This document shows positions 1,321 through 46,985 of a stretch of DNA of 64,000 nucleotides, one piece after another. The stretch is from Orobanche coerulescens (Eukaryota; Streptophyta; Magnoliopsida; Lamiales; Orobanchaceae): contig CM065815.1 of NCBI GenBank assembly GCA_033398695.1, forward strand, positions 14,315,501 to 14,379,500, in the 5' to 3' direction. Under the pieces are notes generated by a model. It did no database searches. It had not been told where the DNA came from and saw nothing but the letters and a program-made list of their open reading frames with translations. The translations under genes and the position numbers were made by a program. Position 1 is the stretch's first letter. Every line of letters begins with the position of its first letter.

Positions 1321-1579
1321 TCATTGTGTGCCTAAGTCTGTTAATTTGCGGGCTTTCCTAGTTAAAGTATGATTAGACCTGCTTGTTTGGATTTTTCTCA
1401 ATTTAAAGGGGTGTAATCAATAGAATAATACACAGTTTTGCCCTAATTTTTGTCTAATGGTGGTATCATATACGGCATAGAGGACAGGTTAACAGGTAGA
1501 TAGATTGGATCGAAACGAAACTCTTTGCCCCCAAAGCCGGCCCGCGCAAAGCAGAACAAATCAGGGGAAAACGGTTCCA

Positions 1580-4500
1580 ATGGCAGAAGCTGCAATTAGA
1601 AAAAGACATGATGATGATGGTGATGGTGATTTTTGTCCTCCACGGAAAATTAGAGTGAGCACTCTTGGAGATATTAATCGTGCCTATGGGAGGGTAAATT
1701 ATTTTTCGCAATTAATATTATTGACTATTTCAATTGCTGGTGTTTTGTAAGTATCAGTTTATTTGTTTGTTGATTCTTAGTGTTTGTTTATATTATACTC
1801 GAGATGAGATGATGATTATACATAAATTGGTTTGATTGATTAGACCAGACCACTTTTATGTTTCTCAGCAAGTTACGTCGATTCATCTCCTTTTTGAATG
1901 TGCCTCCGGATACGCCCTTTTTCTTGCCAACGGAATCAGTCGAGTTGATACGAGCAAGTTTCAAGCAGTCGAGGACTACATCAATGGCTCCCCCCAACCC
2001 TTTGAGCTCATAGATTTTCAACGCTTTTCATCTCATCAGGACGCTCTCCTTCAAATCAATGCTATATCCAAGTGTAAGTTCTTATCGGCCTAAAACACTT
2101 CTTCCACGTATATCCTACCCTTTCTACACAAATTCGTATATTTGTTTCTTCTGTAGCAACTGTGACTCACAAGCTAAAACACTTCCTCGAGAAAAATCTT
2201 CCACACCCTAGAAAAAATTGCTATTCCCTTGCAACGTCTGATTCACATTTGGGAGGAATGATATTAAAGAAAACTGGACTGGGGGTCCAAAGTGGTATTC
2301 TGACCGATGATGTCATGCGTGGTTTGCGGGACAAAATTTACAAACTCATCGGTTTGGAGGTATGTTGTTCCTTCTTCAAGCTACCACTTACAACCCGTAT
2401 ATGTTATATGTTATATATATGAGAGTAAACTGCACATTACACCCCCTAGCCTATAGTCATTTGCACTTCTATATCATTATGCATCCCCTAACATCAAAAA
2501 ATGGATCAATATGCACCTCTTGGCAAGATTTCAGTTTGTTTATAATTAACGGTGGTAGAATGCCTGGGCAGTATTGTCATAACTTGTTTAATGCAAGTTT
2601 TTTTTTTTTTTTGAACCCATTTGTTTAATGCAAGTTGAAAAGAAGAAAATTATTATATTTTAACGTAAATTGATGGAAAAACCTGTGCTACCATCCTTCA
2701 TCTTTGTATACACATGAGATTTCTATCCACATTTTAATATGGGTTAGGCTTTTGAAATCTTTAAACCTGGTAGACTAAAAGACTAGAAGAAAGATGTTAT
2801 AATAGTAATAAAACAAGAAATATGGGTATCAAGAAAATTTGCATGTGAAATATAAATTAGTAAAGATCCAATATGTCTTAAAAAGTTAAATTGTTTGTAA
2901 ATATTTGTGTCAGTATCGAGAAGTATGAGTGCTATTTTACCTTAGGATACGAAGAATTAAAGTAGTTTATTTACATTACAAATGTATTAGTCGCCTATTG
3001 AGTTGAGGCTGGAAAAGAATTTTTTTCCTTTATAGTTCCAATAATGCCCTGATCAGTTTTAACAGTAAGAGTGTAAATAGACTGTAACAGTATCATAGGA
3101 TGCATGTTGAGGTGTTTCTTGAAGTCAGGGGATGCAAAATGACTTATTTCAGATAGTACACACAAGCGAAAATGGCTATATGCTAGGGGATGCGATGTTG
3201 TGATGTGCAATTCACTCTATATATGATTTCGTACTAAACCAAACTTTTGATTTATTGCAGTCTGGGGCGTTGGAAAAGGCCCAACTCAATCTGGCGCGCC
3301 TTCACAACAACACCAGAAGTCCTGTCGTGGTTTCACCATCTTATTTACAACAAGAAGTCGGGGTTGTGCCACATAGATTTGAAGGATTTTTCAACATCAA
3401 GGGTAAAGAGAATGTGTTGTGCACAAGAAATCTAGTACCTGGTGAAGCTCTTTATGGTGAAAAATTAATTCGTGTGCAGGTGAGTCGACTTATATTTGAT
3501 TACTATCTGCCTCTTAATTGATTTATGTACTTCATGAATATCCATGGATATTATTATCTTTATGTTGAAAACGCTCTCCAGGTCACATGTTACCAACGCA
3601 TTAGTACTCAATTAGTGTTTGAAAATTCTAATCACTTTATAAGTTATAAATGCTGTAGATGAAAACAAATAAATTGTATATAACATACAACCATTTTGTC
3701 CATTAAAAACCTTAGTCTCTTGTGCATTAACAATATATGCGTGAGTATGCATATACCTTTAACATCTTATCTTCTTTTGTACATAAACTCCAGGTGTGTG
3801 AAAAATGGATACATGAGTATTTGAGTTACGGCCATTTCCAAAAACAACCCAGTACATATTTTTGTATCGTCAACTATGTGGTTTATTTGTAGTGAACACA
3901 TATTTTGGCAGAGAACATTATAGTGACATGGTGGCCGCTATTAGCTAAGACCTATCCAAGCAAGGTTACAAATGCACGGACCGGATGGAAGTTTTTTGTA
4001 TTTCGCAAATATTCAAAATGTTATGTTAACAGACATAGACTAGAGATTGCGGATAAATTGTCAACCTCTTAAATCTTAATCTTATTGCGATGCTATGGAT
4101 TGCTTTTGGGTTTATCGCAATCCGGATTCTTGCTGGCATATTGTGCTCTTTGACTAAATAGTGGATGTTATGTGAATTCATTTCTAGCAAGTATTACAAA
4201 GCTTTCTCATGATTGAATTTAGCTAGTTAGGGATCGCTAATGGTAATAGACAGACTAATATGTTTGAACCACGAGTTGAGTAAAAGCTTAACTGCAATTG
4301 ACATTGTAAGATATATGACTTAACTCCAATTTGCTTCAACTGTTTTTTTATAAGAGCCCAATTTTTTTTCGCACTAGGCCATAAAACCCTGGGCTGGCCC
4401 TGGCTTCAAATTGGTCTTTTGGCCTTTTTAACTGTTATCAATGTTTAATGTACAGTAATTCAGAGCTTTATGTTTCCACCTGCCGTCCTAGTTTTTTGTG

Positions 4501-5571
4501 TTGGGACTTATTTCAGCCTTTATATCTCAGAATGAGGAAAGAACTGAAGTCGAGTACAGAGTGTGGGATCCGCTTAGATCGAAGTTGGGTGCTGCAATCC
4601 TTGGTGGTGTTACCAATATATGGATTGTAAGTATTATCCTATGTTGGAACCTGGAATAGCATGAGTTGTGCAATAAATTAATTAATTTAAATAATTATGC
4701 TTTATTTTATGTTTTTCAGAAACATGGCTCTCGTGTTTTATATGTGGGAAATGTATGTGGACTTACTGTTTCTAATTTGTCTGATCTTGTTGGCCCGGTA
4801 AGTTTTGTGGTCTATTGTCGGTCATTTATCTCTTATCGTTTATACCTTGCCTAGATGTGTGCTTCAGTAGTATAAAAACATATCTATTTCATCTGCAGGA
4901 TGGTTTGGTCTATGTAGTGGGGTTCTCTGATGGTGATGCTGTTGTAGACATGGCGGGGAAGAGGCCAAATGTTGTGACAATTACTGAGAAATATCCATAT
5001 GGCCATTGGCATTACCGCATGCTTGTTGGTATGGTGGATGTGATCTTCGCTGAGATTGATCATTGTCCTGATCATCCTCCTAGACAGCAGGTTCTCTACT
5101 GCCCCATACTATGTTTAATTGTTTCGCACTCTTTCGTATTAAATGCTTATATATGTGGACAATGCTTTTATTGTATATTATTTTTAAGTAATGCTATATC
5201 ATCTTCACATTTTAGTTTTCTCTTTTACGTAGTAGGGATATTGGTTTTGTGTTTGTCAAGGTGCATTGTCCGGAGGTGAATTTTATAGTTAATAATGCAC
5301 ATTTTTATCTTAGAGCTGGTGGACATTACATGATCTCCACACAGGTTTGTTTTTCAATTATAATATTGAATTTACTAAGTATAATAATGTCGTTGGTATC
5401 TTTCTTAAATCATTTTGATGAGTTGTGTGAACTATATAGGTAAACGACAATTCAACTGGCCATGTTAAAGATCCTTTTACTCGTTACGACAGACGAAAGG
5501 AGTTCAAGCCAATTGAAACAGTCATGCTGGATGGAGCATATGCCCTGTCTGTTGGTGGCTACCGCATTTAA
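1580..5571 (+). CDS. Nop56/Nop58 N-terminal domain fused to fibrillarin methyltransferase domain (nine exons)
   Basis: Exons by splice consensus and reading frame: 1580-1693, 1869-2073, 2157-2359, 3261-3479, 4531-4626, 4720-4797, 4899-5090, 5261-5344, 5440-5571. They sum to 1323 nt, 440 codons plus TAA, with no internal stop. Residues 1-38 are a basic/acidic leader. Residues 43-192 match the NOP5NT region of Nop56/Nop58 ([40 protein letters not shown]). Residues 208-440 match fibrillarin ([65 protein letters not shown]). Exon 4 alone holds both the end of the Nop part and the start of the fibrillarin part, so the fusion does not depend on exon choice. The usual Gly/Arg-rich fibrillarin N-terminus is absent. 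In box C/D snoRNPs the Nop56/58 N-domain binds fibrillarin, which 2'-O-methylates rRNA in the nucleolus. Most catalytic residues are replaced here, so activity is doubtful. The start at 1580 is the ATG of [10 protein letters not shown]; an upstream in-frame extension is possible. Expression is unproven. Confidence 0.85.
2423..3217. mobile_element. Mutator-like MITE in intron 3 of the fusion gene
   Basis: The 795-bp element has terminal inverted repeats starting GAGTAAACTGCACATTACA on the left and, read in reverse, GAGTGAATTGCACATCACA on the right. It is flanked by a perfect 9-bp target duplication TATATATGA (2414-2422 and 3218-3226), as expected for Mutator-like transposition. It encodes no transposase. 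It lies wholly between donor 2360 and acceptor 3260. A related 240-bp element is at 36126-36365. Confidence 0.85.
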
Positions 5572-6291
5572 TCTAGTCACCAAGCCTTTTTGCCATGAAC
5601 TTTTATATTGATTAGTGCTGTTGCAGGTCAAGACATGTAATTAAGAATGCTTTGTTATTTGTTTGGTTTCCACTGCTTCACAACTGATACATTACCAGTA
5701 GCATTGTCAATTTGTCATAACAAGTAGCAGCATGCAACCGAAAAGAACAAGCCAAACAGATCATCAGTCAGATAGACACCTCTTCACCACTAATGTATAC
5801 TCTTACAACACTGGGACTATTATTGAATGGGCGAATAAGGTTTATTAAGACTCAAGTCTATGGAAAAAGAAATGGTCCGATTCAAAGTGATATAATGAAA
5901 TTAAAATATTGATTAAAATATTTTTGTCATACATCTGTATTATAATTTAATATAGGTGATCAAAGGCGTACTGGAATACCATCAGAGGTCTATGATGCTA
6001 CTAACTAAATTCAAAGTGATGCATGGAGCATACGAAATTACAGATATGCTGAAAGTGATATCTATTTTGGAAAAAGTCAATCTCCTTTTTTTTTTTTTTT
6101 TATCTCAGTATCATTACTTCTTGGATGGGGGAGGTGGTTGTTTCACTTAAGGTGGAGGCCTTTTAAAGACTGGTCGAGGTGTTTACTTGATTACTTCTTG
6201 GATGGGGGAGGTGTAGGTGTTTACTTGATTATTTCTTGGATGGGGGAGGTGTTTACTTGATTACTTCTCTTATGTATACAAAGTATTTGGG
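5572..6291. other. 3' flank of fusion gene, with minisatellite
   Basis: No gene is seen. The interval contains the likely 3' untranslated region of the fusion gene and A/T-rich DNA with a T16-T18 tract near 6085. A short minisatellite lies at about 6112-6267: three to four imperfect copies of a 36-42-bp unit with core TTACTTCTTGGATGGGGGAGG. Confidence 0.5.
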
Positions 6292-6504
6292 TTAGAGATG
6301 ACCTGTACCTAGCATGTACTTAAATGAATTTGAAAATTCGTCAGATAGTCGAACTTGTGTCTCAATCAACCATCGAATATCTTCTGGGATGCCATTTCTC
6401 ATTAGCACCATTAATCTTTCGAGTCGAGCTCGATAAATTCTTTTTATGATATTCACTGGAAGAGATGAGTAATATTTACGAAGATTTGAAAGCGTCGAAT
6501 CCAT
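6292..6504 (-). CDS. Small hypothetical protein, 70 aa
   Basis: The ORF reads MDSTLSNLRKYYSSLPVNII at its start and is rich in Arg, Leu and Ile. I recognise no family. A TATA-like CTATAAATAGATT lies on the same strand at 6555-6568, about 50-65 nt upstream of the ATG at 6504, so the arrangement resembles a small gene or a captured first exon. No signal peptide or membrane segment is evident. It lies between the fusion gene and a Copia 3' region and may be part of a decayed element. Confidence 0.3.
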   Translation of the reverse strand: MDSTLSNLRKYYSSLPVNIIKRIYRARLERLMVLMRNGIPEDIRWLIETQVRLSDEFSNSFKYMLGTGHL

Positions 6505-6549
6505 TATGATATTCAGACCCTCAGTATAAGTGAGTTTTGTGAATACAAT

Positions 6550-7600
6550 AATAATCTATTTATAGATTGTAATTACGCGTATGGGATTTGACTCCGCGTC
6601 CAGAAGCATATGAACTACAGTTCTATTTGAATAATAAACATAATATGACATGTGGGAGCGGCGACTCCATGTTGAAAATGATGTGTAATAATGGCACCGA
6701 AAGATGATGTGATATGCCGGTAAAATATCTATATGGTGATATAGACACATCGTCTTCAAATATTTATTCTCGATTAATATCACTACTAGTCAATATTGGG
6801 AATGAATTCCTAAAATTTGGAATATATTAAGGGGGAGTATGGGCCCACTTCCTCTACATGTGAACTACTAGATATTATGGATCCACTAGATAGTCATATG
6901 TGTATATGACTCGTAAACAGAAATTTACGAGATGATTGCTCACGATTTGAGCATATATTCCAGATCAGATAAAGCTAGTAATATATCCCAAATAAACTTG
7001 AATAGATCCCAGAAAGGATCAAGATATGCGCATACAAGTGGGATATCAATTGGCATACTATTTGAAGTCCTCCAGCCAATATCGAGAACATAATATATAA
7101 ACTCCCATGACTGAAGATGAATACTGAGATACCGGCATACGAGTTTGGTGCTCAAGAAATCTCTTAGCATGAGGGGGAGTATTGGTAGTTAGAAATATGT
7201 GAAATGCATCACACTATATCCTCACAACTGAAATATGAACTTGAAGTTCAAAGATGCATGACAGATTATTAATCTTTGGTACCAACTACAACCGCTTTGA
7301 TAAATACATAATAATTCCCCGAATATATATCAAAGCAAATGATAAAAGGAGGCTTATACTTTTGAAGTATATAGACATAACTATAAATGATTGATAATGA
7401 GATATCTCGACAAGTTATGTTGCCATGGAGAAATAAATGTTGAAATGTGTCGACACAATATAGCGCTATGAATGAAATGAGGATATCAATGGGAAATTAT
7501 GCCCTTATAACAAAACGAAACATATGGGCTTACTAAAAGTGACTCGTGAGGAAATTTTGAACATATTATCAGTGCGTGCAGTCACTCAAAATAAGGTGTT
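6550..7600 (+). other. Gene-free Copia-derived sequence
   Basis: No supported gene. GGGGGAGTAT polypurine-like tracts occur near 6832 and 7172, each followed by sequence resembling Copia 3' internal DNA. I see no domain-encoding frame. Confidence 0.4.
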
Positions 7601-7609
7601 GTGAAAGAA

Positions 7610-8419
7610 AATTATATGTTGTACTCTTTTCCTTGACTAAGGTTTTATCCCACTGGGTTTTTCAGCAAGGTTTTTAACGAGGCAGCTTAATCACAACCAA
7701 CCTCCAAAAGAAATTTGGAATATATTGCAATGAATATGAGTTCGATATTACAAACTGCACTGAAAATGATAATCCGTGGAGGATCATTGAAATGCCTGGG
7801 GCATATTTATATAAAATATGTGTTGCACTCTTTTTCCCAATTCCCTTGACTGAGGTTTTGTCCCATTGGGTTTTCCTAACAAGGTTTTTAACGAGGTAAC
7901 TGGAATGGCGTATTAGTATGAATAATGTACTCTTTTATATTAATTATAATTTTTCCCATTGGGTTTTCCCTAATAAGGTTTTAACGAGGCATATTCATGG
8001 CATAATGAGGAACACTATAAAGATCAAGATTATTCCTCAAAGCTTGAAAATAGAAGGAGTAGTTGTGCTCTTTTTCCTTCGATCAAGTTTTTTCCACTCG
8101 GTTTTCTTGATAAGGTTTTAATGAGGTAACACGTGGATACTCCCAACAACGAATTATATACATGACAGATTCACCCAGTTTTTGTCCCACGAGGTTTTAC
8201 TGAGACGGCACAAGAATAAGAACTATCAAGCGGGAGCAAATTTATGAAATCACAGATTGCTGAAGTTTTATCCCACTGAGATTTCCTAGCAACATTATGA
8301 TGCAACATGATATGATTGCCACAAGCTCCAATACAAACAGTTTGAAAGTTTTTCTCCCATTGGGTTTTTCTTCAAACTAATTCAGCAGATATTTATGTAA
8401 ATAGTCATTCAAGGAGGAG
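7610..8419 (+). repeat. Copia 3' region: serial 'CCCACTGGGTTTTTC...AACGAGGCA' blocks
   Basis: At least six degenerate copies of a 60-70-bp block occur near 7622, 7828, 7950, 8070, 8160, 8270 and 8345. Each has a CTCTTTTTCC start, TCCCACTGGGTTTT, and an AAGGTTTTAACGAGG end. The spacer between blocks differs. The run ends with the polypurine tract AAGGAGGAG (8411-8419) directly before an LTR, so this is the 3' internal end of a Copia element. Confidence 0.55.
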
Positions 8420-8785: not shown

Positions 8786-10778
8786 TGTAATACCCGTAAT
8801 TTTGTTTCCCGGAAATTTTCTATTTTTGGCGGAAGTCTATTTTGACGACTTTCTTGGGACCGTTTAGTCATCCTGAGAATGATTAAATCTACACTTTTTG
8901 TCATCCGAGTTCGTTTCGGTATCGTTCTGTTGAATTCCGTGTTCTTTAGCGACTTTTCCACATATAAGTTCGACTTTGTTAAATTACCGTAAATTCTTGG
9001 AAACTCCAAAAATTCTGAATCTTTGCAATAATATAAAGCATCGAGTTAGCTTTCCAATGGTTCAAACGGTGAGTCAATCGGAGTCCAGACGAGAGAGTTA
9101 TGGTCGAAATAGCTGGGTCACTCTCATTTTCCAGATTTGGCCAAAACCGCCTGTACCGGTGCGCGGCACACAGGCTGAGCCGCGGCACACCGCCGAGCCA
9201 CAGGAGCGAATTTTGGGCCTGTGCCGCGGCACACATATCTTGAGCCGCGGCACACATGATTACCCTATATATCTGCGTTTTTCTGCGCGTTTCAACCGAT
9301 ATTCCTCATTTCTTCACCATCACACGAGAGGAAAGGCTTGAGAGAGGAAGGTTTCTTCACCTATCACTTGAGTATATGGTTTCTCTTCATCTCTTTTCGA
9401 TTGTGAAGCCCGGATCATCGTTCTATCGTGTGCTCTTCGAATCATAGTGCTTGGATCTTCAAGAGGTAATTTCTTCAACATCTTGGATTTCGATTTTGTA
9501 TTGGGTAATAATGTTTTGGATGCTAAAATCATGGGGTATGAAGTGATATACGCATGATTATGGACTTGTTGGAGTATTCATCGGATTATTGAAAGATTAT
9601 TCAAGAACACTTCGAATTTTATGTTGGAAATTGGGGATTTTGTTTGACTTCATCCTTTTAATCCGTAGTAAATTAGATTAGTGATGGATTGATGATGATT
9701 TAGGTGTATTCTATCATTTCCATCGTTATTCCACGGTTGGATTGTATTGGTTCGTCGTTTTGGTTGAGTTATTAGTCGACGCCTTGAAGGTGTCCGACAA
9801 AAGGTCTAAGAGGGGGTTTTGTGCGTTGTACGATTATTATTCATCGCATTTACGATTGTTGATTTATCATTGATATGACTTAGGGACGAAATCCTTGTGA
9901 AGAACTCAAGTGAAACCCTTCCGTTCGTTGTCTTCTTCGTGGTTCAAGCTTCCGGTCGAACCGTGTTCTTGGGATCTTGATGCGTTTATTAAAGGCAAGT
10001 ATACATTTATGATTATGCGTTCTCGACTTTGAAAGTAAGAAATATTGATGGCATATCATGAGCGAACCATTTTACGGCATTCATAGATATATTGATTGGC
10101 ATGTAATGAGCGAACCGTTTGTGGCATTCCTACATGTATCGGCGTATGAGGTGAGCGAACCGTTTTGACGGCATTCACATACGTAACGGCGTATGAGGTG
10201 AGAACGAACCGTTTCTACGGCATTCGCATACGTCTTATGAGATTTGGTTATTAGGAATACTAGTCTTAAATTGATGAATTGACGGATATTGATGAATTGA
10301 CGGATTACATTTACTTTATTGTCGAGGAGTATTATGTTTCATATTGTTATACTTGCACTAGCTATTCGACGGCTAACCCCTTTATGGGAAATACGTTTCA
10401 TGTATTTGAGTTCGGGAGCGCGGACAGACGGGTATCGGGTCGGCATGAAGATGATGGGCAAGTGTGATCGTGTCTTGTCTCCGGTTATTTTTCTTGGATT
10501 CCCCCATTCAGTGTTGTTGTCTTGGAATGGATTTTTAATACTCGAGTATTGTATTTGATTTCCTTGATGTTAGGCCTGTGTTGCCGAGGTATTGATTTGT
10601 GCAGTGATGTATATGGTTTCATTGGTTATGGTTTTGAATACCATTTGTATCGTCTTTCATTCTATTGTATGTAGACCTTATCGGTCAAGTTTATAGTTCC
10701 GCGTATGTTTAGCCTTGTGGGTCCCACGGCGGGGCTCACGGCGCTGTAATATACCCTGAATAACTTGGGGGTGTTACA
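8786..10778 (+). repeat. 5' LTR of the 20.9-kb element
   Basis: The 1993-bp repeat pairs with 27738-29733. It includes a GC-rich block of GCCGCGGCACAC repeats (9150-9260) and a minisatellite near 10035-10235: about four copies of a ~55-bp unit with cores GAGCGAACCGTTT and ACGGCATTCACATACGT. The ends are TG and CA. Confidence 0.85.
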
Positions 10779-10851: not shown

Positions 10852-12186
10852 TGTTTAGTATATTTTGAGTAATATTTTTATTAGTATTTTATGTATATAA
10901 TTGTGTGTTTTGTGTGATAATTTATTCGTTTTACCATATATTTATATTATTTCATTTTCTTAGAATTTTCTATAATTTTATGTCATTTTTGGATAATTAA
11001 TTGGAATTAAATTATATCTGCAGGTTAACCAACCGGTACAAGACAGATCAATTGGTTCAAGGGCGATATTTTTACAAAACTCAAATATAGTCACGACTGG
11101 TCTCACTTTATTCGTCTCGTCGAGACGATCGTTTTAAAAAAAAAATTCATCCAAATCCGAGTTCGTATGAAGAAGTTATGACCGTTCGAAGGACAATTAA
11201 ATAGACGGACCATATTGTGCCACGTGTCAACACCTGATTGGACCGGAATTTCAACTCTGTGCTGATATCATCCATGACATCACCACTCATGGCAGCCGTG
11301 TATTATTGTTGGGGGTGAAATTTTTAATTGTAAAAATGATTATTTTATTGATTTTGAAGTAGTATAAATAGGGGATGATTGTGTAGTGTTTGGAGAGGAA
11401 AAAAAAAGGAGAAAAAATAGAGAGATATTATTGTAAGGGAGAGAAAAAAAATATTGTGTAATAAAATTATATTTGTGTAATAATATTATGGAATATTTAT
11501 TTATTTGTGTTGTTATTATGAGTGAGTAATTTTCTTTTACTGGGGTTATGATGAAACCATGTCTATATTATTATTAATATTTATATAATAATTCCAAATA
11601 AATATTTTTAACGATTATGATTTTCGCTTCAATATGGGAATATTATTTCATCAATTATATCACGTATTTTTGATAGTTATAAATTCCCCCTTGCTTTGTG
11701 ATTATTGATATTAGTTAATTTCTTTGATTATTTGTTTTCCATTAAATTGGATACATATAATGCTTAGAAATTACATTTTTTAAGCGAAGGAAAATCTATA
11801 TTTGAATTATAATTTTGTACTTATTGTCAAATCTATAGGGAAATAGTGAGATTGATTTCAGAATCTATTCCCTGAATTTCTTGGAATTAAAATATAAAAT
11901 AAATAATAAATAGACATTGGTGGACTCTAAACCCTAGTAAATTATTTAAAATCAATTTATCTAAAATCTACTTAAAAATTACTGTTATTTAATGCAATTA
12001 TTATAACCATTCAAAAATAAATTATTTGGGACTAGGTTAGAATTTAATATAATTTGGTTCAAAACGATAGGAATCATTTGACTTCACTAGTATAGTCCTC
12101 CCTGTGGAATCGACCTTGCACCGCATATCTACATCGAACAAATCGTGCGCTTGCGAGTATAAGACTAAAGAATCAAACCAACAACA
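10852..12186 (+). repeat. 5' outer LTR of the Athila-type unit
   Basis: The 1335-bp repeat starts TGTTTAGTAT and ends ACCAACAACA with inverted TGTT/AACA ends. It contains the hairpin CGTCTCGTCGAGACG near 11115 and a TATA-like GTATAAATAGGG near 11363 ahead of a purine-rich transcribed leader. It pairs with 22180-23502. Confidence 0.85.
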
Positions 12187-17288: not shown

Positions 17289-18560
17289 TTAGGGATGGGT
17301 GACTCGGAAATTTTCCCTTTTCTCTTTCAATAAAGGCTGCAAGTTGACCAATTTGTGTTTCAAGCTTAGAAATAGCCTGTGAGTTTGGTATGCGACTTCT
17401 GAGTTGATTGGAACATTTGTTGAGTAGATTGCATGAATTGTTGCAACGTATCTTCCAAAGATGGTTTCTTTGGCACTATAGAAGGATCGATAAGTATTTG
17501 GAGGATATTGATTAGGACGGACATTTTGTTGATTTGGCATATTCATTTGATGTCCTCCTTGATTCATTGGAGGCATATTTTGCTTCGGGAAAAATTTGGA
17601 TGATTCCTCCAATTTGGATTATAAGTTGGAGCAAATGGGTGTCAGAAGATTTTCCATATGAATGTAACACATTGACTTCTTCATTAAAAATTTCTTGATT
17701 TTGTGGACCGGAGGGACAAGATTGAGATGAATGAAATGATTCCGCACATGAAATGCAAAATTCATTTTTGAGTTTGACGAGGATGGATTGCTTCAAGACT
17801 AACGCATCCACTTTTCGTACTAAATCATCTATAGTAGATTTTATTTCAACATCTTGTTTAACCTCGTAAATTCCACCTTTTTGGGGTCGTATGCATCGAT
17901 TTGGCTCTAGAGTCGAGTGAATTCCATTGTTGTGAATTAATTGACATATTTTCAAGTGCATTCCAAGCTTCGTCTCAATAAGGTGAAGAAATTTTCCACC
18001 ATGCATTGATTGGATTAATTGGCGATTGTTTGGAGTTAAACCGTCATAAAAATATTTTACCAAACGCCATATTTCAAAACCATGATGGGGACACTTAAGG
18101 ATTAAATCATTAAATCTTTCCCAACACTCGTAAAATTCTTCATTTTCTTTTTGGAAAAATTCGGATATTTCTCTTCTAAGACTATCGTTTTGGACATTGG
18201 AAAAATTTTGCGAAATTTATTCACTAGTTGGTCCCAACTAGTAATTGTTCTTGCTTGAAGAGAATTTAGCAATTTTGCTTTATCTTTGAGAGAAAATGGA
18301 AATAATCTAAGTTTGATGATTCATCGGAGAAATTTTGGAATCGGAAAGTAGAACAAATATCGAAATTCCTTGACATGCATATACGGATCTTCTCTTTCCA
18401 AACCGTGAAAAGATGGAAGAAGTTGAATTATTGATGGTTTAAGTTCGAAATGAGTTGCATTAGTCGTAGGCAACACTATGCAAGAGGGAGAATTAGCACT
18501 CACCGGAGAAAAATATTCTATTAAAGTTTTTCTTTTGCAACTTGATTATTCCGATTTTCG
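17289..18560 (-). pseudogene. Athila gag relic
   Basis: Minus-strand frames read FELKPSIIQLLPSFHGLERE (capsid start), then VKYFYDGLTPNNRQLIQSM, then VRKVDALVLKQSI with CISCAESFHSSQSC, a zinc-knuckle-like Cys/His cluster, then an Asn/Gln/Pro-rich tail (MNQGGHQMNMPNQQNVRPNQ). The order matches Athila gag. It is split by several frameshifts and stops. Confidence 0.7.
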
Positions 18561-20324: not shown

Positions 20325-21377
20325 TGTTGTTGGTTTGATTCTTTAGTCTTATCTTTCATGGCCTTGCGATTTGTTCGATGTAGATATGTAGTGCAAGGTC
20401 GATTCCACGGGGAGGACTATCTTAGTGAAGTCAAATGATTCCTATCGTTTTGAACCAAATTATATTAAATTCTAACCTAGTCCCAAATAATTTATTTTTG
20501 AATGGTTATAATAATTGGATTAAATAACAAATTTTTAGTAGATTTTAGATAAATTGATTTTAAATAATTTACTAGGGTTTAGAGTCCACCAATGTCTATT
20601 TATTATTTATTTTATATTTTAATTCCAAGAAATTCGGGAATAGATTAAATCAATCTCACTATTTCCTATAGATTTGACAATAAGTACAAAATAATAATTC
20701 AAATATAGATTTTCCTTCGCTTAAAAATGTAATTTCTAAGCATTATATGTATCCAATTTAATGGAAAACAAATAATCAAAGAAATTAACTAATATCAATA
20801 ATCACAAAGCAAGGGGAATTTATAACTATCAAAAATACGTGATATAATTGATGAAATAATATTCCCATATTGAAGCGAAAATCATAATCGTTAAAAATAT
20901 TTATTTGGAATTATTATATAAATATTAATAATAATATAGACATGGTTTCATCATAACTTGAAAAGAAAATTACTCACTCATAATAACAACACAAATAAAT
21001 AAATATTCCATAATATTATTACACAAATATAATTTTATTACACAATATTTTTTTTCTCTCCCTTACAATAATATCTCTCTATTTTTTCTCCTTTTTTTTT
21101 CCTCTCCAAACACTACACAATCATCCCCTATTTATACTACTTCAAAATCAATAAAATAATCATTTTTACAATTAAAAATTCCACCCCCAACAATAATACA
21201 CGGCTGCCATGAGTGCTGATGTCATGGATGACATCAGCACAGAGTTGAAATTCCGGTCCAATCAGGTGTTGACACGTGGCACAATATGGTCCGTCTATTT
21301 AATTGTCCTTCGAACGGTCATAACTTCTTCATACGAACTCGGATTTTGATGAATTTTTTTTTTAAAACGATCGTCTC
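20325..21377 (-). repeat. Third Athila LTR copy, inverted and truncated
   Basis: The segment is the reverse complement of the last ~1050 bp of the outer LTRs, from TGTTGTTGGTTTGATTC on the plus strand up to AAAACGATCGTCTC. There it breaks off in the middle of the LTR hairpin CGTCTCGTCGAGACG. The ~270 bp that would carry the TGTTTAG end are missing. Confidence 0.8.
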
Positions 21378-22179: not shown

Positions 22180-23502
22180 TGTTTAGTATATTTTGAGTAA
22201 TATTTTTATTAGTATTTTATGTATATAATTGTGTGTTTTGTGTGATAATTTATTCGTTTTACCATATATTTATATTATTTCATTTTCTTAGAATTTTCTA
22301 TAATTTTATGTCATTTTTGGATAATTAATTGGAATTAAATTATATCTGCAGGTTAACCAACCGGTACAAGACAGATCAATTGGTTCAAGGGCGATATTTT
22401 TACAAAACTCAAATATAGTCACGACTGGTCTCACTTTATTCGTCTCGTCGAGACGATCGTTTTAAAAAAAAATTCATCAAAATCCGAGTTCGTATGAAGA
22501 AGTTATGACCGTTCGAAGGACAATTAAATAGACGGACCATATTGTTCCACGTGTCAACACCTGATTGGACCGGAATTTCAACTCTGTGCTGATGTCATCC
22601 ATGACATCAGCACTCATGGCAGCCGTGTATTATTGTTGGGGGTGGAATTTTTAATTGTAAAAATGATTATTTTATTGATTTTGAAGTAGTATAAATAGGG
22701 GATGATTGTGTAGTGTTTGGAGAGGAAAAAAAAAGGAGAAAAAATAGAGAGATATTATTGTAAGGGAGAGAAAAAAAATATTGTGTAATAAAATTATATT
22801 TGTGTAATAATATTATGGAATATTTATTTATTTGTGTTGTTATTATGAGTGAGTAATTTTCTTTTACTGGGGTTATGATGAAACCATGTCTATATTATTA
22901 TTAATATTTATATAATAATTCCAAATAAATATTTTTAACGATTATGATTTTCGCTTCAATATGGGAATATTATTTCATCAATTATATCACGTATTTTTAG
23001 ATAGTTACTGCTTTGTGATTATTGATATTAGTTAATTTCTTTGATTATTTGTTTTCCATTAAATTAGATACATATAATGCTTAGAAATTACATTTTTAAG
23101 CGAAGGAAAATCTATATTTGAATTATAATTTTGTACTTATTGTCAAATCTATAGGGAAATAGTGAGATTGATTTCAGAATCTATTCCCTGAATTTCTTGG
23201 AATTAAAATATAAAATAAATAATAAATAGACATTGGTGGACTCTAAACCCTAGTAAATTATTTAAAATCAATTTATCTAAAATCTACTTAAAAATTACTG
23301 TTATTTAATGCAATTATTATAACCATTCAAAAATAAATTATTTGGGACTAGGTTAGAATTTAATATAATTTGGTTCAAAACGATAGGAATCATTTGACTT
23401 CACTAGTATAGTCCTCCCTGTGGAATCGACCTTGCACCGCATATCTACATCGAACAAATCGTGCGCTTGCGAGTATAAGACTAAAGAATCAAACCAACAA
23501 CA
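22180..23502 (+). repeat. 3' outer LTR of the Athila-type unit
   Basis: The 1323-bp repeat is near-identical to 10852-12186, ends ACCAACAACA and is followed by the ATTTG target duplication. A few small deletions distinguish it (for example around 23005). Confidence 0.85.
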
Positions 23503-27737: not shown

Positions 27738-29733
27738 TGTAATACCCGTAATTTTGTTTCCCGAAAATTTTCTATTTTTGGCGGAAGTCTATTTTAACGA
27801 CTTTCTTGGGACCGTTTAGTCATCCTGAGAATGATTAAATCTACACTTTTTGTCATCCGAGTTCGTTTCGGTATCGTTCTGTTGAATTCCGTGTTCTTTA
27901 GCGACTTTTCCACATATAAGTTCGACTTTGTTAAATTACCGTAAATTCTTGGAAACTCCAAAAATTCTGAATCTTGGCAATATTATAAAGCATCGAGTTA
28001 GCTTTCCAATGGTTCAAACGGTGAGTCAATCGGAGTCCAGACGAGAGAGTTATGGTCGAAATAGCTGGGTCACTCTCATTTTCCAGATTTGGCCAAAACC
28101 GCTGTGCCGGTGCCGCGGCACACTGGCTGAGCCGCGGCACCGCCGAGCCACAGGGAGCGAATTTTGGGCTGTGCGCGGCACACATATACTGAGCCGCGGC
28201 ACACATGACAGATTACCCCTATATCTGCGTTTTTCTGCGCGTTTCAACCGATATTCCTCATTTCTTCACCATCACACGAGAGGAAAGGCTTGAGAGAGGA
28301 AGGTTTCTTCACCTATCACTTGAGTATATGGTTTTTCTTCATCTCTTTTCGATTGTGAAGCCCGGATCATCGTTCTATCGTGTGCTCTTCGAATCATAGT
28401 GCTTGGATCTTCAAGAGGTAATTTCTTCAACATCTTGGATTTCGATTTTGTATTGGGTAATAATGTTTTGGATGCTAAAATCATGGGGTATGAAGTGATA
28501 TACGCATGATTATGGACTTGTTGGAGTATTCATCGGATTATTGAAAGATTATTCAAGAACACTTCGAATTTTATGTTGGAAATTGGGGATTTTGTTTGAC
28601 TTCATCCTTTTAATCCGTAGTAAATTAGATTAGTGATGGATTGATGATGATTTAGGTGTATTCTATCATTTCCATCGTTATTCCACGGTTGGATTGTATT
28701 GGTTCGTCGTTTTGGTTGAGTTATTAGTCGACGCCTTGAAGGTGTCCGACAAAAGGTCTAATAGGTGGGTTTTGTGCGTTGTACGATTATTATTCATCGT
28801 ACGATTGTTGATTTATCATTGATATGACTTAGGGACGAAATCCTTGTGAAGAACTCAAGTCGAAACCCTTCCGTTCGTTGTCTTCTTCGTGGTTCAAGCT
28901 TCCCGGTCGAACCGTGTTCTTCGGATCTTGATGCGTTTATTAAGGCAAGTATACATTTATGATTATGCGTTCGACTTTGAAAGTAAGAAATATTGATGGC
29001 ATATCATGAGCGAACCGTTTTACGGCATTCATAGATATATTGATTGGCATGTAATGAGCGAACCGTTTGTGGCATTCCTACATGTATCGGCGTATGAGGT
29101 GAACGAACCGTTTTGACGGCATTCACATACGTAACGGCGTATGAGGTGAACGAACCGTTTCTACGGCATTCACATACGTCTTATGAGATTTGGTTATTCC
29201 GGAATACTAGTCTTAAATTGATGAATTGATGGATATTGATGAATTGACGGATTACATTTACTTTATTGTCGAGGAGTATTATGTTTCATATTGTTATACT
29301 TGCACTAGCTATTCGACGGCTAACCCCTTTATGGGGGAAATACGTTTCATGTATTTCAGGTTCCAGGAGAGCGGACAGACGGGTATCGGGTCGGCATGAA
29401 GATGATGGGCAAGTGTGATACTGTGTCTTGTCTCCGGTTATTTTTCTTGGATTCCCCCATTCAGTGTTGTTGTACTGGAATGGATTTTTAATACTCGAGT
29501 ATTGTATTTCAGTTTCCTTGATGTTCCGGCCAGTGTTGCCGAGGTATTGATTTGTGCAGTGATGTATATGGTTTCAATGGTTATGGTTTTGAATACCATT
29601 TGTATCGTCTTTCATTCTATTGTATGTAGACCTTATCGGTCAAGTTTATAGTTCCGCGTATGTTTAGCCTTGTGGGTCCCACGGCGGGGCTCACGGCGCT
29701 GTAATATACCCTGAATAACTTGGGGGTGTTACA
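27738..29733 (+). repeat. 3' LTR of the 20.9-kb element
   Basis: The 1996-bp repeat is the partner of 8786-10778. It is followed by the target duplication CGCAG and then the right half of the interrupted LINE. Differences from the 5' copy fall largely at CAG/CTG sites. Confidence 0.85.
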
Positions 29734-40329: not shown

Positions 40330-43300
40330 CTTACTTCATTAATTATAGAAATTGAAGTCATAATATCACACTAACTTCACGTTTGGCAGTAGTGAAGTAA
40401 TAGAGTGCATACGCTTCGCCAAAATAAACACAGAGCTTGGGCGGGATCTTTAAGTAAGATACACTTCAGTAAATTGTTAATTAATGAAGTGGAAAAAATG
40501 GCCAAAAAATTCTAAAAAAATATCCCACCAAAACTGAAATGAAAGCCAAGTGGCGGGCTTTGAAAAAAAACCCACCCAAAATATACCCCAAAAATTTATA
40601 CTTCAGTTTTATTTTTAACACATTGTGAGAGATCCCACTGCTCATTGTTTTAATCTCGGGAAAGTAAATCAACTTTCTCTACAAACCCATACCCGTGAAA
40701 ATCAAACTCCTTGAGGAGTACTGCTAAGTGAGAGAGAGAGAGAGTGTACTGCCGTTCGTCACCACCACCACCACTACTGTTCGTCACCGTCGTTCGTCGC
40801 CGTCACCATCGTTCGTCGCTATCGCCACCAACATCAACACCATCGGTCAATTATAATCTTTCCCCTAATTTTCCCTAATTTTACCCCTAAATTTTCCCCA
40901 ATCTTTTGTGTTCTAATTTATTCCCCAACTTTTCATTGTAGGGTTTAAGTTATTCACCGTTCGTCGCCGTCACCACCAGCGAATCTGAAGGTAACTTTAT
41001 GTTCGATTCTACATTGTTCGATTCTACATTGTAGGGTTTTATTATGGGTTAATTTTTAGGGTTCTTGGCATTTATTTTGGGGTTTATGACTGACACTGTA
41101 TTCTTAGGTGTTTCTGAGGTGTCTTAGGTGTTTTTATTGTGTTAATTCTTGTGATTTTCTTGTGGTTTTTGTGCTGTATTAAAATATTGTTGGGCTTTTT
41201 GTAGTATTTTGTTGATTCTTGGGATTTTCTTCTGATTTTTGTTATTTTTGTGGTTTGTTTTGGATTTTCTTTAAGTATTTTAGTATGTGTGACTTTGATA
41301 TGGATCCTTTAGTTTCTGATTTATATTTTAGTGCTTAGTTATTTTTTTTGTTCTTGCTCATTTACTGGATTTCACTAGTTGCATTTGGCTCCTGTTTACT
41401 AGTTGCATTTGGCTGCATTTCACCTACACCATATTTCCTCATTTTGCAGATTTCTTTGAGGGGTAAGAGACATTTCCTCACTGTTCATTCATTTAAGTAT
41501 GGATAAAACATGTATTCATGCGGATAGGATGTCAAAAGAGTATGAGGAGAGTGTGGAATTGTTCATTAAAGGATGTCTAGAGAATGTAGGAAGTGATCCA
41601 GAATTCATTCATTGTCCTTGCTGCAAATGCATAAATATGAAAAAGGGACCAGTTAAGATGATTAGAGAGCACCTGTTCTTCAATGGTTTCGATAAGTTTT
41701 ACTCAAATTGGAATTGGCCTGGTGAATCAACTAGTAAACATGGGAAAGCATTTGATGATTATGACAACTTCGGAGTCGGTAATATATGTGAGGCCGCATA
41801 TGAAAACTACACAGAAGACCCGTCAATGTTTATGAAATTTCTGGAGGAGGCAGAAAAGCCGCTGTACAAGGGTTGTCGAAGATACACAAAGTTGAGTGCA
41901 CTTGTGAGGTTATACAATCTAAAGGCAAGGCATGGAATGACTGATGCTCTCTTCTCGGATTTATTTGTCGACTTCGGGGAGATGTTACCAGGCAACCATC
42001 AAATACCGTCCTCAATGTACGAAGTGAAGAAGACACTGAGCTGTTTGGGGTTGAAGCATGAGAAAATTCATGCTTGCTCTAATGATTGCGTGCTTTATAG
42101 GGAGCGATACAAAGATTATACAAGCTGTCCAAAGTGCAAATTGTCAAGATGGAAATTATCGAAGACGAAGGTGGAGAAAGTAGGTGTACCTGCAAAGGTG
42201 TATGGTATTTTCCTCCAATACCGAGATTTTAATGCATGTAAATCAATTGAGACTTCAAGAAAGTTAACATGGCATGCTGAGACGAAAAAAGTTGAAGGCG
42301 TGCTACGTCACCCGTGTGATTCTCCATCATGGAAACAAGTTGATCATCTGTGTGTGGACTTCAAAAAAGAGCCGAGAAACCTAAGGCTAGCACTTGCCGC
42401 TGATGGAATAAATCCTCACAGTAATCAAAGTACTCGACACAGTTGTTGGCCCGTCATGTTACTAACATACAACCTGCCTCCTTCGATGTGTGTGGAGCGG
42501 AAGTTTATCATGCTGACCATGCTTATTTCTGGCCCCAAGCAACTGGGAAACGACATAGATGTATATCTTCAATTGTTAATTGAAGACTTGCAATGGATGT
42601 GGAAGGGAATAGATGGAGTATACGATGCTTATAGAAAAGAACATTTCTGCTTAAAGGCAGTACTCTTATGGACCATAAGTGACTTCACGGCATACGATAA
42701 CCTTAGTGGATGCACTACACATGGTTACTTCGCGTGTCCAATCTGTGGTGAAAATACGCATGCCATCCACTTGGAGAATGGGAAGAAAATGTCGTACGGT
42801 GGCCATAGACGATATTTGAAAATGGTCTATCCGTATTGATTCCCAGCAAACGATTTCAACAGTGCAGAGGAACTTGAAGAAGCACCAAGACCATTATCGG
42901 GAATAAAGCTATGCGAGAAGATTTCGTTCATAAAGTATGAGATAGGCAATAAGGTCATTATTAGAGGTCATAAAATAAAAAGAACAACTAAGAAGAAGGA
43001 AATGTGTACACAAGAAGAAGAAGAAGACGATGATAAATTAAAGAAATTCAGAAAATGTTGGAAGAAGAAGTCGATATTTTTCAATCTTCCATACTGGAAA
43101 CATATACATGTAAGGCATTGTCTCGATGTGATGCACATCGAGAAAAATGTTTTTGAATCCTTGATCAATACAATGATGACTGTTAAAGAGAAGACCAAAG
43201 ACAATGTGGCGACAAGGTTAGACTTTGTGAAGATGGGAATACGTCCAGAATTGGCACCTGAAGTATGGGAGAAAAGGACAAACATTCCTCTTGTTGCGTG

Positions 43301-44448
43301 CTCTTTCACCAAAAAAGAAAAATAACACGTTTGCGAATCTGTGATGAATATTAAAGTACTCAAGGGTTTCTCATCCAACATGAAGAATATTGTTTTCATT
43401 GATGAGCTGAAGTTGACAAGTTTGAAGTCACATGATTGTCATGTACTAATTCAACATTTTCTTCCCAGAGTTATTCGTGTCGCTCTACCAAAACACGTGA
43501 GATACGCAGTCATGAGGTTGTGCTTCTTTTTCAAAGATATTTGCTCCAAGGTCATAGAGGTAACCAAGTTGGATAAGTTGCAATATGACCTGGTGATTAC
43601 ACTTTGCCTGTTAGAGCAGGATTTTCCTCCTTCGTTCTTCGATATAATGGTTCACTTAACAGTCCATCTCGTTCGAGAAGTCCGATTATGTGGGCCAGTG
43701 GGTTTAAGATGGATGTATCCCATTGAGCGATGCACGAAAGTGTACAAATGCTATGTAGACAGTCGAAAACATCCTGAAGGGTGCATTGTGCAACGATATT
43801 CGGCGGAAGAGGCAGTAGAAATTTGTTCAAAGTACATGAAAGATGTATATGCTGTTGGGATTTCTATTCCACTTAGAGATCTTGAAGATACCACACCCGG
43901 TTTCCTAGCTTGCACAATAGCTGCTGTTGTAGTGCCAAAAGTTGATCACCAAAGAGGACACATGACTGTATTAGTAAATATCGAGCCAGTTTCTCCCTAC
44001 ATAATGTAAGCTAATTTATTCTCTATCAAATTCTGCATGTGTATATCTTGTTTTAGGTGTCAAACATGTGTGCTGACTTGAATTTGTTTGTTTACCTCTA
44101 TAAATAATCTACAGTGAACACAAAGCTGCCTTGAAGTTGATGTACTCAAGGAAAGAGAAAGGCGAGAAGTGGATACAAGATGAGCACAACAAGACATTTA
44201 TCACAGTGGCTACTGAAATCAATAGTGGCCTTGGGAGAACGACGTCAACATTGACATGGTTGGCACATGGTCCACGTGAACGAGTCGTGAAGTACAGTAG
44301 TTATGTGACTAATGGAAGGTTGTACCAAACAAAGACTCGAGACGATGAGAGAGTCTGTCAGAATAGTGGGGTTTCTCTTGTTGCCAACACAATGCTTGTA
44401 TGCGGTGGGAAGGATAAGAATCCTTTGCTGGCAGACCTGTGTTACTAC
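40330..44448 (+). mobile_element. CACTA (En/Spm) DNA transposon, 5' part
   Basis: It contains a TNP2-type transposase gene. Upstream, 40330-40610 holds seven copies of ACTTCA/TGAAGT in both orientations, like the subterminal binding sites of CACTA elements; a possible terminus is CACTTACTTC at about 40330, uncertain. The element is cut at 44448 by a Tekay retrotransposon; its 3' part is not seen in the window. Confidence 0.65.
41499..44448 (+). pseudogene. TNP2-type CACTA transposase
   Basis: One frame runs from ATG 41499 to 44005 with a TGA at 42837-42839 and a TAA at 43323-43325. A splice (donor 44006, acceptor 44114) continues it to the retrotransposon junction. Blocks in order: the transposase-associated N-domain with Cys pairs (HCPCCKC), NLKARHGMTDALFSDLF, KYKDYTSCPKCKLSRW-like motif (YKDYTSCPKCKLSRW), FKKEPRNLRLALAADGINPH, SGCTTHGYFACPICGE, HVRHCLDVMHIEKNVFESL, then the DUF4218-like part (FPPSFFDIMVHLTVHLVREV) and WLAHGPRERVVKYSSYVTNG. 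TNP2 cuts and pastes CACTA elements. The conserved D-containing blocks are kept, so only a few changes inactivate it. Confidence 0.85.
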
Positions 44449-46985
44449 TGTAATATCCGAATTAATTATTGAGTATTTCCTCTGGAATTGAACCCTGTAT
44501 TATTCGAATTGGTGATATCGATAATCGAAGTATGATATTTCTAGTATTTGTATCCTTGTGTATGATTATAGCAACATATAAATTTTCTCATGCAAATACG
44601 TGATAACGTACGCTAAGAATGTAGCCTAACGTACGTTATCGGCCAGAGTTAGCGTACGCTACGAATGAAGCATAGCATACGTTAGGCAGTCAATAATTGA
44701 GCTGGACGGCTAACACATGCGCCAGTCGGACTTGGGTCTGGATAAGATTCCCTCGGATGAACCTGGACACTTTTGAAGTCAACAATTATTAACGTACGCT
44801 AAGGAATGTGTCTAGCGTACGCTAATTGGTGTTAATTACGTACGTAACCTGATGGTGTAGCGTACGTAATCGAGTACAGAATGAGAACAGTTAACTATCG
44901 GTGACGATAGCATACGCTAAGAATATTGGATAGCATACGCTAAGAGACTAACGTACGTTATGCATGAAGGCTAACGTACGTTAAGGTTAAAAAATTATAA
45001 ATTAGACATCATCCCATTTTATTTCAGCTCGTTTATTTCACTTAGCCTTCAACATACTTCGTGCCCAGAGAGATCCCAGCCTTCTTAAACACATATAGAC
45101 CATCTCTACTTGATCATTGAAGATTGGATATCACTTATGCTTGGTCATTGAAGTGGAGAAACATCTTGGATTGGCACACAAGCAACCGGAGTTGGATTCC
45201 ACCTATTGTCTCGGTGTTTTCTTCATCTTAAGGTATGTTGTACTATCTTCAACCTTGGATTCGTGTTCTTAAGGATATGATGATCATGCTATCAAGATAT
45301 TAAGTTCCAGAGATGATTCATTCAACCAAACATCATGTTTAGAAGTTGAGATGATTATGCTTTAAGTACATCGGTTAAGAACATCATAATTTGAATCTTG
45401 TTACGATGAACAAGTAAAGGAAGTTTTCTGAGATTAGTAATCCAAATTTGGAAGGTGTCTTCGTAGTAATCACGGACTTGGTATTAACATCATTATTGTT
45501 AGACGAACCTAGGTGATTGATCATGGAAGGATTTGTTGTATCTTGTAAAGATGGATTGTTAAAACAAACTTCAAGATGATAGTTTGAATGATATAAGATA
45601 TTGATGTCAACCATAGGCCTTCCGAATTATGTATGAGAATTTGTAATCAAGATTGGAGTGTGATCACCATGATGATATATGTATCCTTGAATTCGAAGAT
45701 GTTTTAATCCGTAAGATCATTCATAACTGTATGAGCATGATAAGTACGGGGATGACGTACGTTAATCACTGAGGATTTCATAAGCTTCATCACAAATCGA
45801 GGCAGTTATCTGCCCAGTGAGAAACTGTCATATGTGTGTTTAGTGTACGCTAAGTTATGTAGCTTACGTACGCTATCGGGCATAGTTAACGTACACTACG
45901 TTTGGTACGTAATGTACGTTATATCATCAGTCGAGTCAGTCGACTGATTAGTGGGGGACTGTCGATGCATGGCTAGCGTACGCTAGACTCCGTAGTTTAC
46001 ATACGCTAACGAGTAGGCTTAACGTACGCTACAAAGGGTACATAACGTACGTTAAACAGGTCAGACAGGTTACGTTTTATGAACTTTCGACCATAATTTG
46101 GATTGTTAGATGTTCGTACGACGTGAGATGAACTCTACATTATTTGTTTTGTTTAAGGTTCGAGTTTTGCAACGTGATTAATCGAAGGGGCGACCTTTAA
46201 TTATTTTGATATTCGTGGAAGTGTTATTCTTGTCATCGAATCGAGGCAAGTACTTTAACTGTTTTATGTATTGATGTTATACATATTGTTGTGCATATAT
46301 GTTGTTGTTTTATGTCCAACTCGTGTTGGTCCGACGGGATCATCGGGGGATCTATGCTAGCGTGCGCTTGATCATCGGGTGGGTTTTTCCACCTCAGGTT
46401 GGTTTGACGGAATCATCGGGGGATCTAGGAAGTGAACGCTGGATCACCGGAATTTCCATGTGTATGTTGTGATATCATGTTGTGATTATCATTTGTATAT
46501 GTTATTTGTGAGTTTCTCGTAGGAGGAGACTCGTTAGTATTTTGTCATTCATGTTATTATTATTCTTCATGAGATGTTGAATAATATGTTGTGGTACTTG
46601 TACTAGCATCGTTGTGCTAACCCCTTCGGGGGTGAACATTTGTTTATGTTCAGGGTCCAGGAGAGCAGGTAAACAACCACTGGAGTTACATGACGACGAG
46701 GGTGCAGAATGATGTTCCGGTTGGGTTTAATTGTCTGTTGTTTGTGTTGTTTTTAATAAGTACTCGAGTACGTCGTCGTCTGTGATGATTTGGATTTGGT
46801 GATGTATTAATACTCTTCTTTTGGATATTTGTATTCTCGGTATTGGCCATAACTGTTTGTATTTTATTTCAGTTACTTTCATACGTTGGTAACTGTTATT
46901 GTCTTTTCATTTCTTCAGCCTTGTAAATTCTTATGTAAAGGATTTACTGCGCTGTAATATTCCTGAATATATCGGGGGTGTTACA
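44449..46985 (+). repeat. 5' LTR of plus-strand Tekay
   Basis: The 2537-bp LTR runs TGTAATATCCG to GGTGTTACA. It contains two clusters (44590-44990 and 45750-46060) of about 20 palindromic words of the type AACGTACGTT, AGCGTACGCT and ATACGCTA. A repeated GGAATCATCGGGGGATCTA segment lies at 46330-46450. Confidence 0.85.

Follow-up and report, generated by a model that had tools for sequence, protein, structure and literature searches.

Few nucleolar proteins are as conserved as Nop56, a core protein of the box C/D small nucleolar ribonucleoprotein (snoRNP), and fibrillarin (the Fibrillarin/Nop1/Mediator subunit 36 family), so that a fast-evolving, amplified and apparently enzyme-dead chimera of both comes as a surprise. 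In the crystal structure 6zdt, the Nop56 N-domain and fibrillarin are bound in trans, as separate chains. The window analysed here, 64,000 nucleotides of the broomrape Orobanche coerulescens (contig CM065815.1 of assembly GCA_033398695.1, positions 14,315,501 to 14,379,500), contains a gene on its + strand (1580-5571; all coordinates are those of the whole window) whose product carries the same two domains in cis, with the Nop56 part first and a linker of about 15 residues. The fusion shares PF08156 with Nop56 but stops ahead of the coiled coil and of PF01798; it shares PF01269 with fibrillarin but is without the glycine- and arginine-rich (GAR) region and has lost residues for S-adenosylmethionine (SAM) binding and catalysis. 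The best explanation overall, towards which we lean by a little, would be a once-born NOP56N-pseudofibrillarin family, a nuclear pseudoenzyme mimic that moved between plants as intron-containing DNA.

Gene transfers between Orobanchaceae and their hosts have been described (PMC6294234, PMC3893544, PMC3601976) and, in the accessible text of these papers, likewise concern sequences shared by broomrapes and host families against the species tree. The fusion differs from them in that several lineages of one family are shared, that it contains introns and that it is also found in Linum and Rumex. Searches of the open-access literature, as far as its text was accessible, yielded no description of such a fused protein or of its transfer: the word "fibrillarin" is absent from the main text of PMC6294234, the main text of PMC7608942 contains neither "fusion", "Daucus" nor "Trifolium", and a word search of the accessible text of PMC13192451 gave no mention of the fusion. 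As far as found, the family is therefore apparently undescribed, in agreement with the initial annotation of this DNA, which knew of no protein with this layout. Names in the databases ("Nucleolar protein 58/56 N-terminal...", "fibrillarin-like") indicate that annotation pipelines noticed the domains, which does not amount to a description of the family.

Structure of the gene and extent of its family

The window gene is an intact genomic fusion in which the Nop56 N-domain is joined to fibrillarin inside one exon. Splicing its nine exons (Table 1) gives a reading of 1323 nt, with 440 codons and a single terminal stop, as initially predicted; all eight introns are GT...AG, with lengths from 83 to 1051 bases, and the two alternative frames of the spliced reading contain 17 and 37 stops. 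This exon model was fixed ahead of any homologue, and the alignment with P0003 from Heracleum sosnowskyi came afterwards: it is full-length, with 343 identities in 444 positions (77%) and 4 gap positions. In the domain scan (hmmscan against Pfam, E up to 10), the 440-residue protein matches two families in total, in the order expected from the initial annotation, NOP5NT (PF08156) at residues 44-106 (E 2e-7, 31.7 bits for a cut-off of 27) and Fibrillarin (PF01269) at residues 210-427 (E 1.2e-47). The predicted lack of the Nop coiled coil and RNA-binding domain and of the GAR region was upheld as well, there being no match to PF01798 in the same scan and no GAR repeat in the sequence of residues 1-43. 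Compared with solved Nop56 chains from the Protein Data Bank (PDB), the sequence match of the first part extends to about residue 193, and the second part fits fibrillarin. The N-domain, first assigned to "Nop56/Nop58", is indeed a NOP5NT domain, but it is more precisely that of Nop56 (best PDB chains: E 1e-13 for Nop56, 3e-8 for Nop58). Since exon 4 codes for the end of the Nop56 part and the start of fibrillarin alike, the join is genomic.

A search of 5.8 billion proteins returned 816 matches, and both Pfam domains were present in 47 of the best 120 of these 816; besides P0003, a full-length match came from Orobanche hederae (P0004, 73%). A profile built from 34 fusions returned 3362 matches, of which the best 120 were examined, the sequences scored being the 7991 candidates that shared most words. 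Among the matches listed for this profile, full-length fusions of the window's type mostly outscore the canonical fibrillarins, which start at about 370 to 350 bits. Three rows with the domains in reverse order (P0189, P0190 and P0121, 338-349 bits) and some fragments score amid the canonical proteins. One fusion, P0123, is absent from the best 120 of 816 in the first search, yet present in two further listings. At least 10 named species have the fusion; among the matches listed they include Apium graveolens, Heracleum sosnowskyi and Daucus carota of the Apiaceae, the broomrapes O. hederae, O. minor and O. gracilis, and Trifolium pratense, T. repens, Linum perenne and Rumex salicifolius. The architecture, for which a search of related genomes had initially been suggested, thus belongs to a large, patchily distributed family and is not a single oddity. 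Within the window itself, tblastn with proteins P0001-P0171 gave no second copy of the gene.

Uninterrupted frames of 435-554 amino acids were also found on "lgn" contigs of 1557 to 2012 bases (P0008, P0009, P0010, P0025, P0026 and P0181, the last in reverse order). We take these contigs to be assembled public sequence reads; judged by their length, they look like spliced transcripts, because the window gene spans 3992 bases with its introns. Basic motifs resembling a nuclear localization signal (NLS) are present in the tails of 41 of 51 members, a count made with no control set. The VIA-align rows span chiefly residues 208-444, the fibrillarin part, and 21 columns are invariant among 34 distant members. 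Two members have additional matches: an SRA domain at residues 400-521 of O. hederae P0016 (E 8e-11) and a weak DnaJ match, under the Pfam cut-off, at residues 14-80 of P0025 (E 0.005).

Probable single origin and distribution among plants

The fusions form one clade in the trees of both domains, with 49 fusions in the fibrillarin-part tree (support 100/98, outgroup of 14 canonical rows) and 48 in the Nop-part tree (99/96, outgroup of 12 NOP56 rows). This points to a single birth of the family, when parts of a NOP56 gene and of a fibrillarin gene were joined in the DNA within one exon. In five proteins the order is reversed, with fibrillarin ahead of the Nop56 N-domain: P0121 and P0183 from Heracleum, P0189 and P0190 from Trifolium repens, and P0181. 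They constitute a clade in both trees (100/100 and 100/99), sister to the window's type, which itself is supported by only 89/87 in the fibrillarin tree (44 rows) and by 99/96 in the Nop tree (43 rows); both forms occur in Apiaceae and in clover. Because of this sister relation, the reversed type is probably a circular permutation that passed through a tandem array, which is the simplest account. Gene models with tandem N-F-N-F and F-N-F arrangements (N, Nop56 part; F, fibrillarin) do exist (P0172, P0017 and P0001), possibly as merged predictions.

In the N-F type, the exon boundaries of the window gene fall at residues 174, 247, 279, 305, 369 and 397. We compared them with segments of at least 15 residues missing between isoforms or paralogues from Daucus, Apium and Linum, in 11 hand-picked pairs. 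Both ends lie on window exon boundaries for 8 of the 13 missing segments; two from Linum start exactly on a boundary and end 2 and 5 residues off, and three do not fit. The match indicates that copying took place at the DNA level, introns included, and that the exon 4 join is old. The Apium models P0064 and P0179 lack the equivalent of this joining exon (3261-3479) as one block.

The distribution among plants was studied on a concatenated tree with 50 rows and the reversed type as its root. In this tree the Orobanche rows are scattered at several places among Apiaceae rows, Trifolium lies within the window's clade, Linum and one Rumex row are basal, and a second Rumex row, with a long branch, stands next to an Orobanche row. 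Placing five plant labels on the 37 labelled window-type rows requires 10 changes, for a minimum of 4, and 12 when the reversed type is included; Orobanche versus Apiaceae alone, on the window-type rows, requires 6. Holding the 13 Orobanche rows together was rejected by the approximately unbiased (AU) test (p-AU 1e-41), as was a single clade of the 15 window-type Apiaceae rows (p-AU 1e-5); the stronger rejection with 17 Apiaceae rows (p-AU 1e-60) is partly trivial, because two of them are of the reversed type. Six Apiaceae rows of clade C are at distances of 0.47-0.54 from O. gracilis P0034 and, between genera, of 0.24-0.52 from each other; in the window's clade, the distance to Heracleum is 0.49 for O. 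hederae P0004 and 0.74 for Daucus P0011. No fusion from other Lamiales is among the matches listed, although canonical fibrillarins of Striga, Erythranthe, Penstemon, Olea, Forsythia, Handroanthus and Primulina appear there. Together, the interleaving of Orobanche with Apiaceae and this absence suggest repeated horizontal transfer of intron-containing DNA, which we regard as likely from the sequences compared. With several lineages of the family common to broomrapes and Apiaceae, repeated transfer from plant to plant can thus be tested on this distribution.

Contamination of the broomrape data by host DNA was also considered and is unlikely, because close pairs of sequences (P0006/P0007, 91%; P0020/P0032, 93%; P0053/P0123, 91%) join Orobanche species which, according to the accessible text of PMC13192451, differ in host range. 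As for viral carriers, 19 contig stretches from IMG/VR matched a pattern and none of the 19 encodes a relative.

Active-site loss, proposed role and rival explanations

The SAM-site Glu is kept in none of 44 window-type rows and neither is the GAASGTT motif I, whereas both are kept in 14 of 14 canonical proteins; the second catalytic Lys is kept in 6 of the 44. At the four columns Lys/Asp/Lys/His, which we take to be the catalytic set of fibrillarin, the window protein has Lys, Glu, Gln and Tyr, and its SAM region is altered in motif I and at a Glu and an Asp (Table 1). The fibrillarin half of the window's type looks enzyme-dead, with SAM-binding and catalytic residues lost. An AlphaFold model of a Heracleum member has a predicted template modelling score (pTM) of 0.87, which agrees with a fixed position of its two domains relative to each other; the model of the reversed form P0190 (pTM 0.46, mean local confidence pLDDT 56.6) is too poor for use.

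These observations modify the initial idea of a "pre-assembled half complex": both domains do stand in one chain, but by its residues the fibrillarin is not a working methyltransferase, and because of this loss and of the large, patchy family the protein is better read as a half-complex mimic. We propose that part of a NOP56 gene was joined once to part of a fibrillarin gene; the fused protein retains both folds but not the residues for SAM binding and catalysis. Its role would be nuclear: as a pseudoenzyme it would imitate the half complex of Nop56 and fibrillarin and so compete with, or tie up, the partners of the box C/D snoRNP, whether these are components of the host snoRNP or fibrillarin-targeting proteins of viruses. 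It might thus regulate the snoRNP, inhibit it dominantly or act as a decoy for plant viruses using fibrillarin, whose exploitation of this protein is reviewed in PMC11599257 (in its accessible text). The gene would have multiplied and, in the form of genomic DNA with introns, crossed species borders, among them that between broomrapes and Apiaceae. Whether a snoRNP-mimic role exists in any of these forms we judge evenly balanced. An arms-race gene fits the high copy number, fast divergence and patchiness better than a housekeeping gene. More tentatively, the whole could be a horizontally mobile family of nucleolar pseudoenzymes, exchanged between broomrapes and hosts in two circularly permuted forms and serving as a fast-evolving decoy or poison for the box C/D snoRNP or for fibrillarin-exploiting viruses. 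If the fusion does bind snoRNP parts, it would offer a model, made by nature, in which the interface of Nop56 and fibrillarin stands in cis, and ribosomal RNA methylation would have a natural inhibitor or regulator.

Other explanations have to be weighed against this proposal. Predictors do merge tandem genes, and P0001 and P0172 look so merged, but the chance that the family is an assembly or annotation artefact of two neighbouring genes is negligible: the join lies within a single exon of the window DNA and recurs in at least 10 named species and in 1.6-2.0 kb contigs with uninterrupted frames, and since two celery models lack the joining exon as a whole, the exon 4 join is no assembly error. 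An active, pre-assembled Nop56-fibrillarin methyltransferase unit would agree with the retention of both folds and with the domain placement in the Heracleum model; it is very improbable given the residue losses in window-type rows and the lack of a coiled coil or Nop domain for holding guide RNA. It is also doubtful that the gene is selfish cargo of a transposable element or other mobile DNA, with no host function and copies that are transcribed by-products. High copy number, patchy distribution, odd tails (the SRA domain of P0016, the sub-threshold DnaJ-like match of P0025), tandem or permuted forms (P0001, P0017, P0172, P0121) and a location amid retrotransposon sequence speak for it; the intact nine-exon frame in the window, the invariant columns shared by distant members and the lack of convincing terminal inverted repeats around the gene (in 800-1580 and 5572-7200) speak against it.

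If the family were instead an old angiosperm one, inherited vertically in many copies and lost independently on a massive scale, the Orobanche and Apiaceae copies would be ancient paralogues and there would have been no transfer. Linum, Rumex, Trifolium, Apiaceae and Orobanche are spread over the core eudicots, and old duplications likewise give non-monophyly of species groups. We consider this scenario rather unlikely, because several ancient copies (6 Orobanche/Apiaceae changes) would all need to be lost in other Lamiales, whose canonical fibrillarins are among the matches listed with no fusion from the same genera, although most full-length window-type fusions score higher, and because the Orobanche-Apiaceae distances in clade C are little above those between Apiaceae genera. 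Several points nevertheless count against the proposal of a dead, horizontally moved family. Old duplicates and loss could also produce the Orobanche/Apiaceae interleaving, and keeping Trifolium outside the window's clade is only just rejected (p-AU 0.047). Absence elsewhere is judged from annotated proteins among the matches listed (best 120 per search), and as reversed forms and fragments score amid canonical fibrillarins, they could be missed in other plants. Finally, the reversed-type rows keep the SAM-site Glu in 2 of 5 (Trifolium repens) and the catalytic His in 5 of 5, so that "dead" is firm for the window's type only.

Genomic surroundings

The gene sits in a transposable-element region. 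A retrotransposon-like motif (CCCACTGGGTTTT...AAGGTTTTTAACGAGGCA) flanks it on both sides, as if copies of a single element enclosed the gene or stood to either side of it. In 800-1580 and 5572-7200 no terminal inverted repeats of a convincing kind were found, ends of this type alone being sought; the 15 matches that the scan gave, each 14 bases long with 2 mismatches, are for the most part A+T-rich, and the best flanking repeat is 3 bases long. Repeated ACCCG words at 1120-1190 end in CATTGACATCCCTAA, and this stretch resembles the end of a hAT-type miniature element.

Table 1. Exons of the fusion gene and other features of the window
Feature	Position	Strand	Description
Exon 1	1580..1693	+	Start codon and 38-residue N-terminal tail (RKRH...PPRKIR, NLS-like), without GAR; aligns with Heracleum P0003 N-terminus
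Exon 2	1869..2073	+	Nop56 N-domain begins (PF08156)
Exon 3	2157..2359	+	Remainder of Nop56 N-domain (Pfam, PDB match)
Exon 4	3261..3479	+	Chimeric: Nop56 end, short linker, fibrillarin start (...LIRVQ); missing as unit in Apium P0064, P0179
Exon 5	4531..4626	+	Fibrillarin part; same boundaries given by Daucus isoform P0011
Exon 6	4720..4797	+	Altered fibrillarin motif I: GNVCGLT for GAASGTT
Exon 7	4899..5090	+	SAM-site Glu to Gly (VVGF for AVEF), Asp to Lys, motif IV Asp to Glu
Exon 8	5261..5344	+	Fibrillarin core; ISIK Lys to Gln (ISTQ); same boundaries in Daucus P0014 versus P0011
Exon 9	5440..5571	+	Fibrillarin C-terminus and stop; Tyr at catalytic His position
Retrotransposon-like motif	~500-1266 and 7609-8400		Flanks the gene
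Direct repeats	8786-10778 / 27738-29733; 10852-12000 / 22180-23316		97-98% identical
Inverted copy	20512-21377		Copy of 11122-12000
CACTA-type transposase	41460-44472		Transposase_21, tnp2 in 41460-42839, then more open frames
snoR71 match	18077-18183	+	Rfam, plant C/D snoRNA, 56.9 bits
Retrotransposon gag frame	17512-18216	-	Antisense to the snoR71 match

The direct repeats are probably recent transposon copies. In Arabidopsis, fibrillarin genes contain a small nucleolar RNA (snoRNA) within their introns; none was found in the introns of the fusion gene at E up to 1 within 1500-6500. The snoR71 match lies elsewhere in the window, antisense within a retrotransposon gag frame, and the Rfam family snoR71 may contain transposon sequence.
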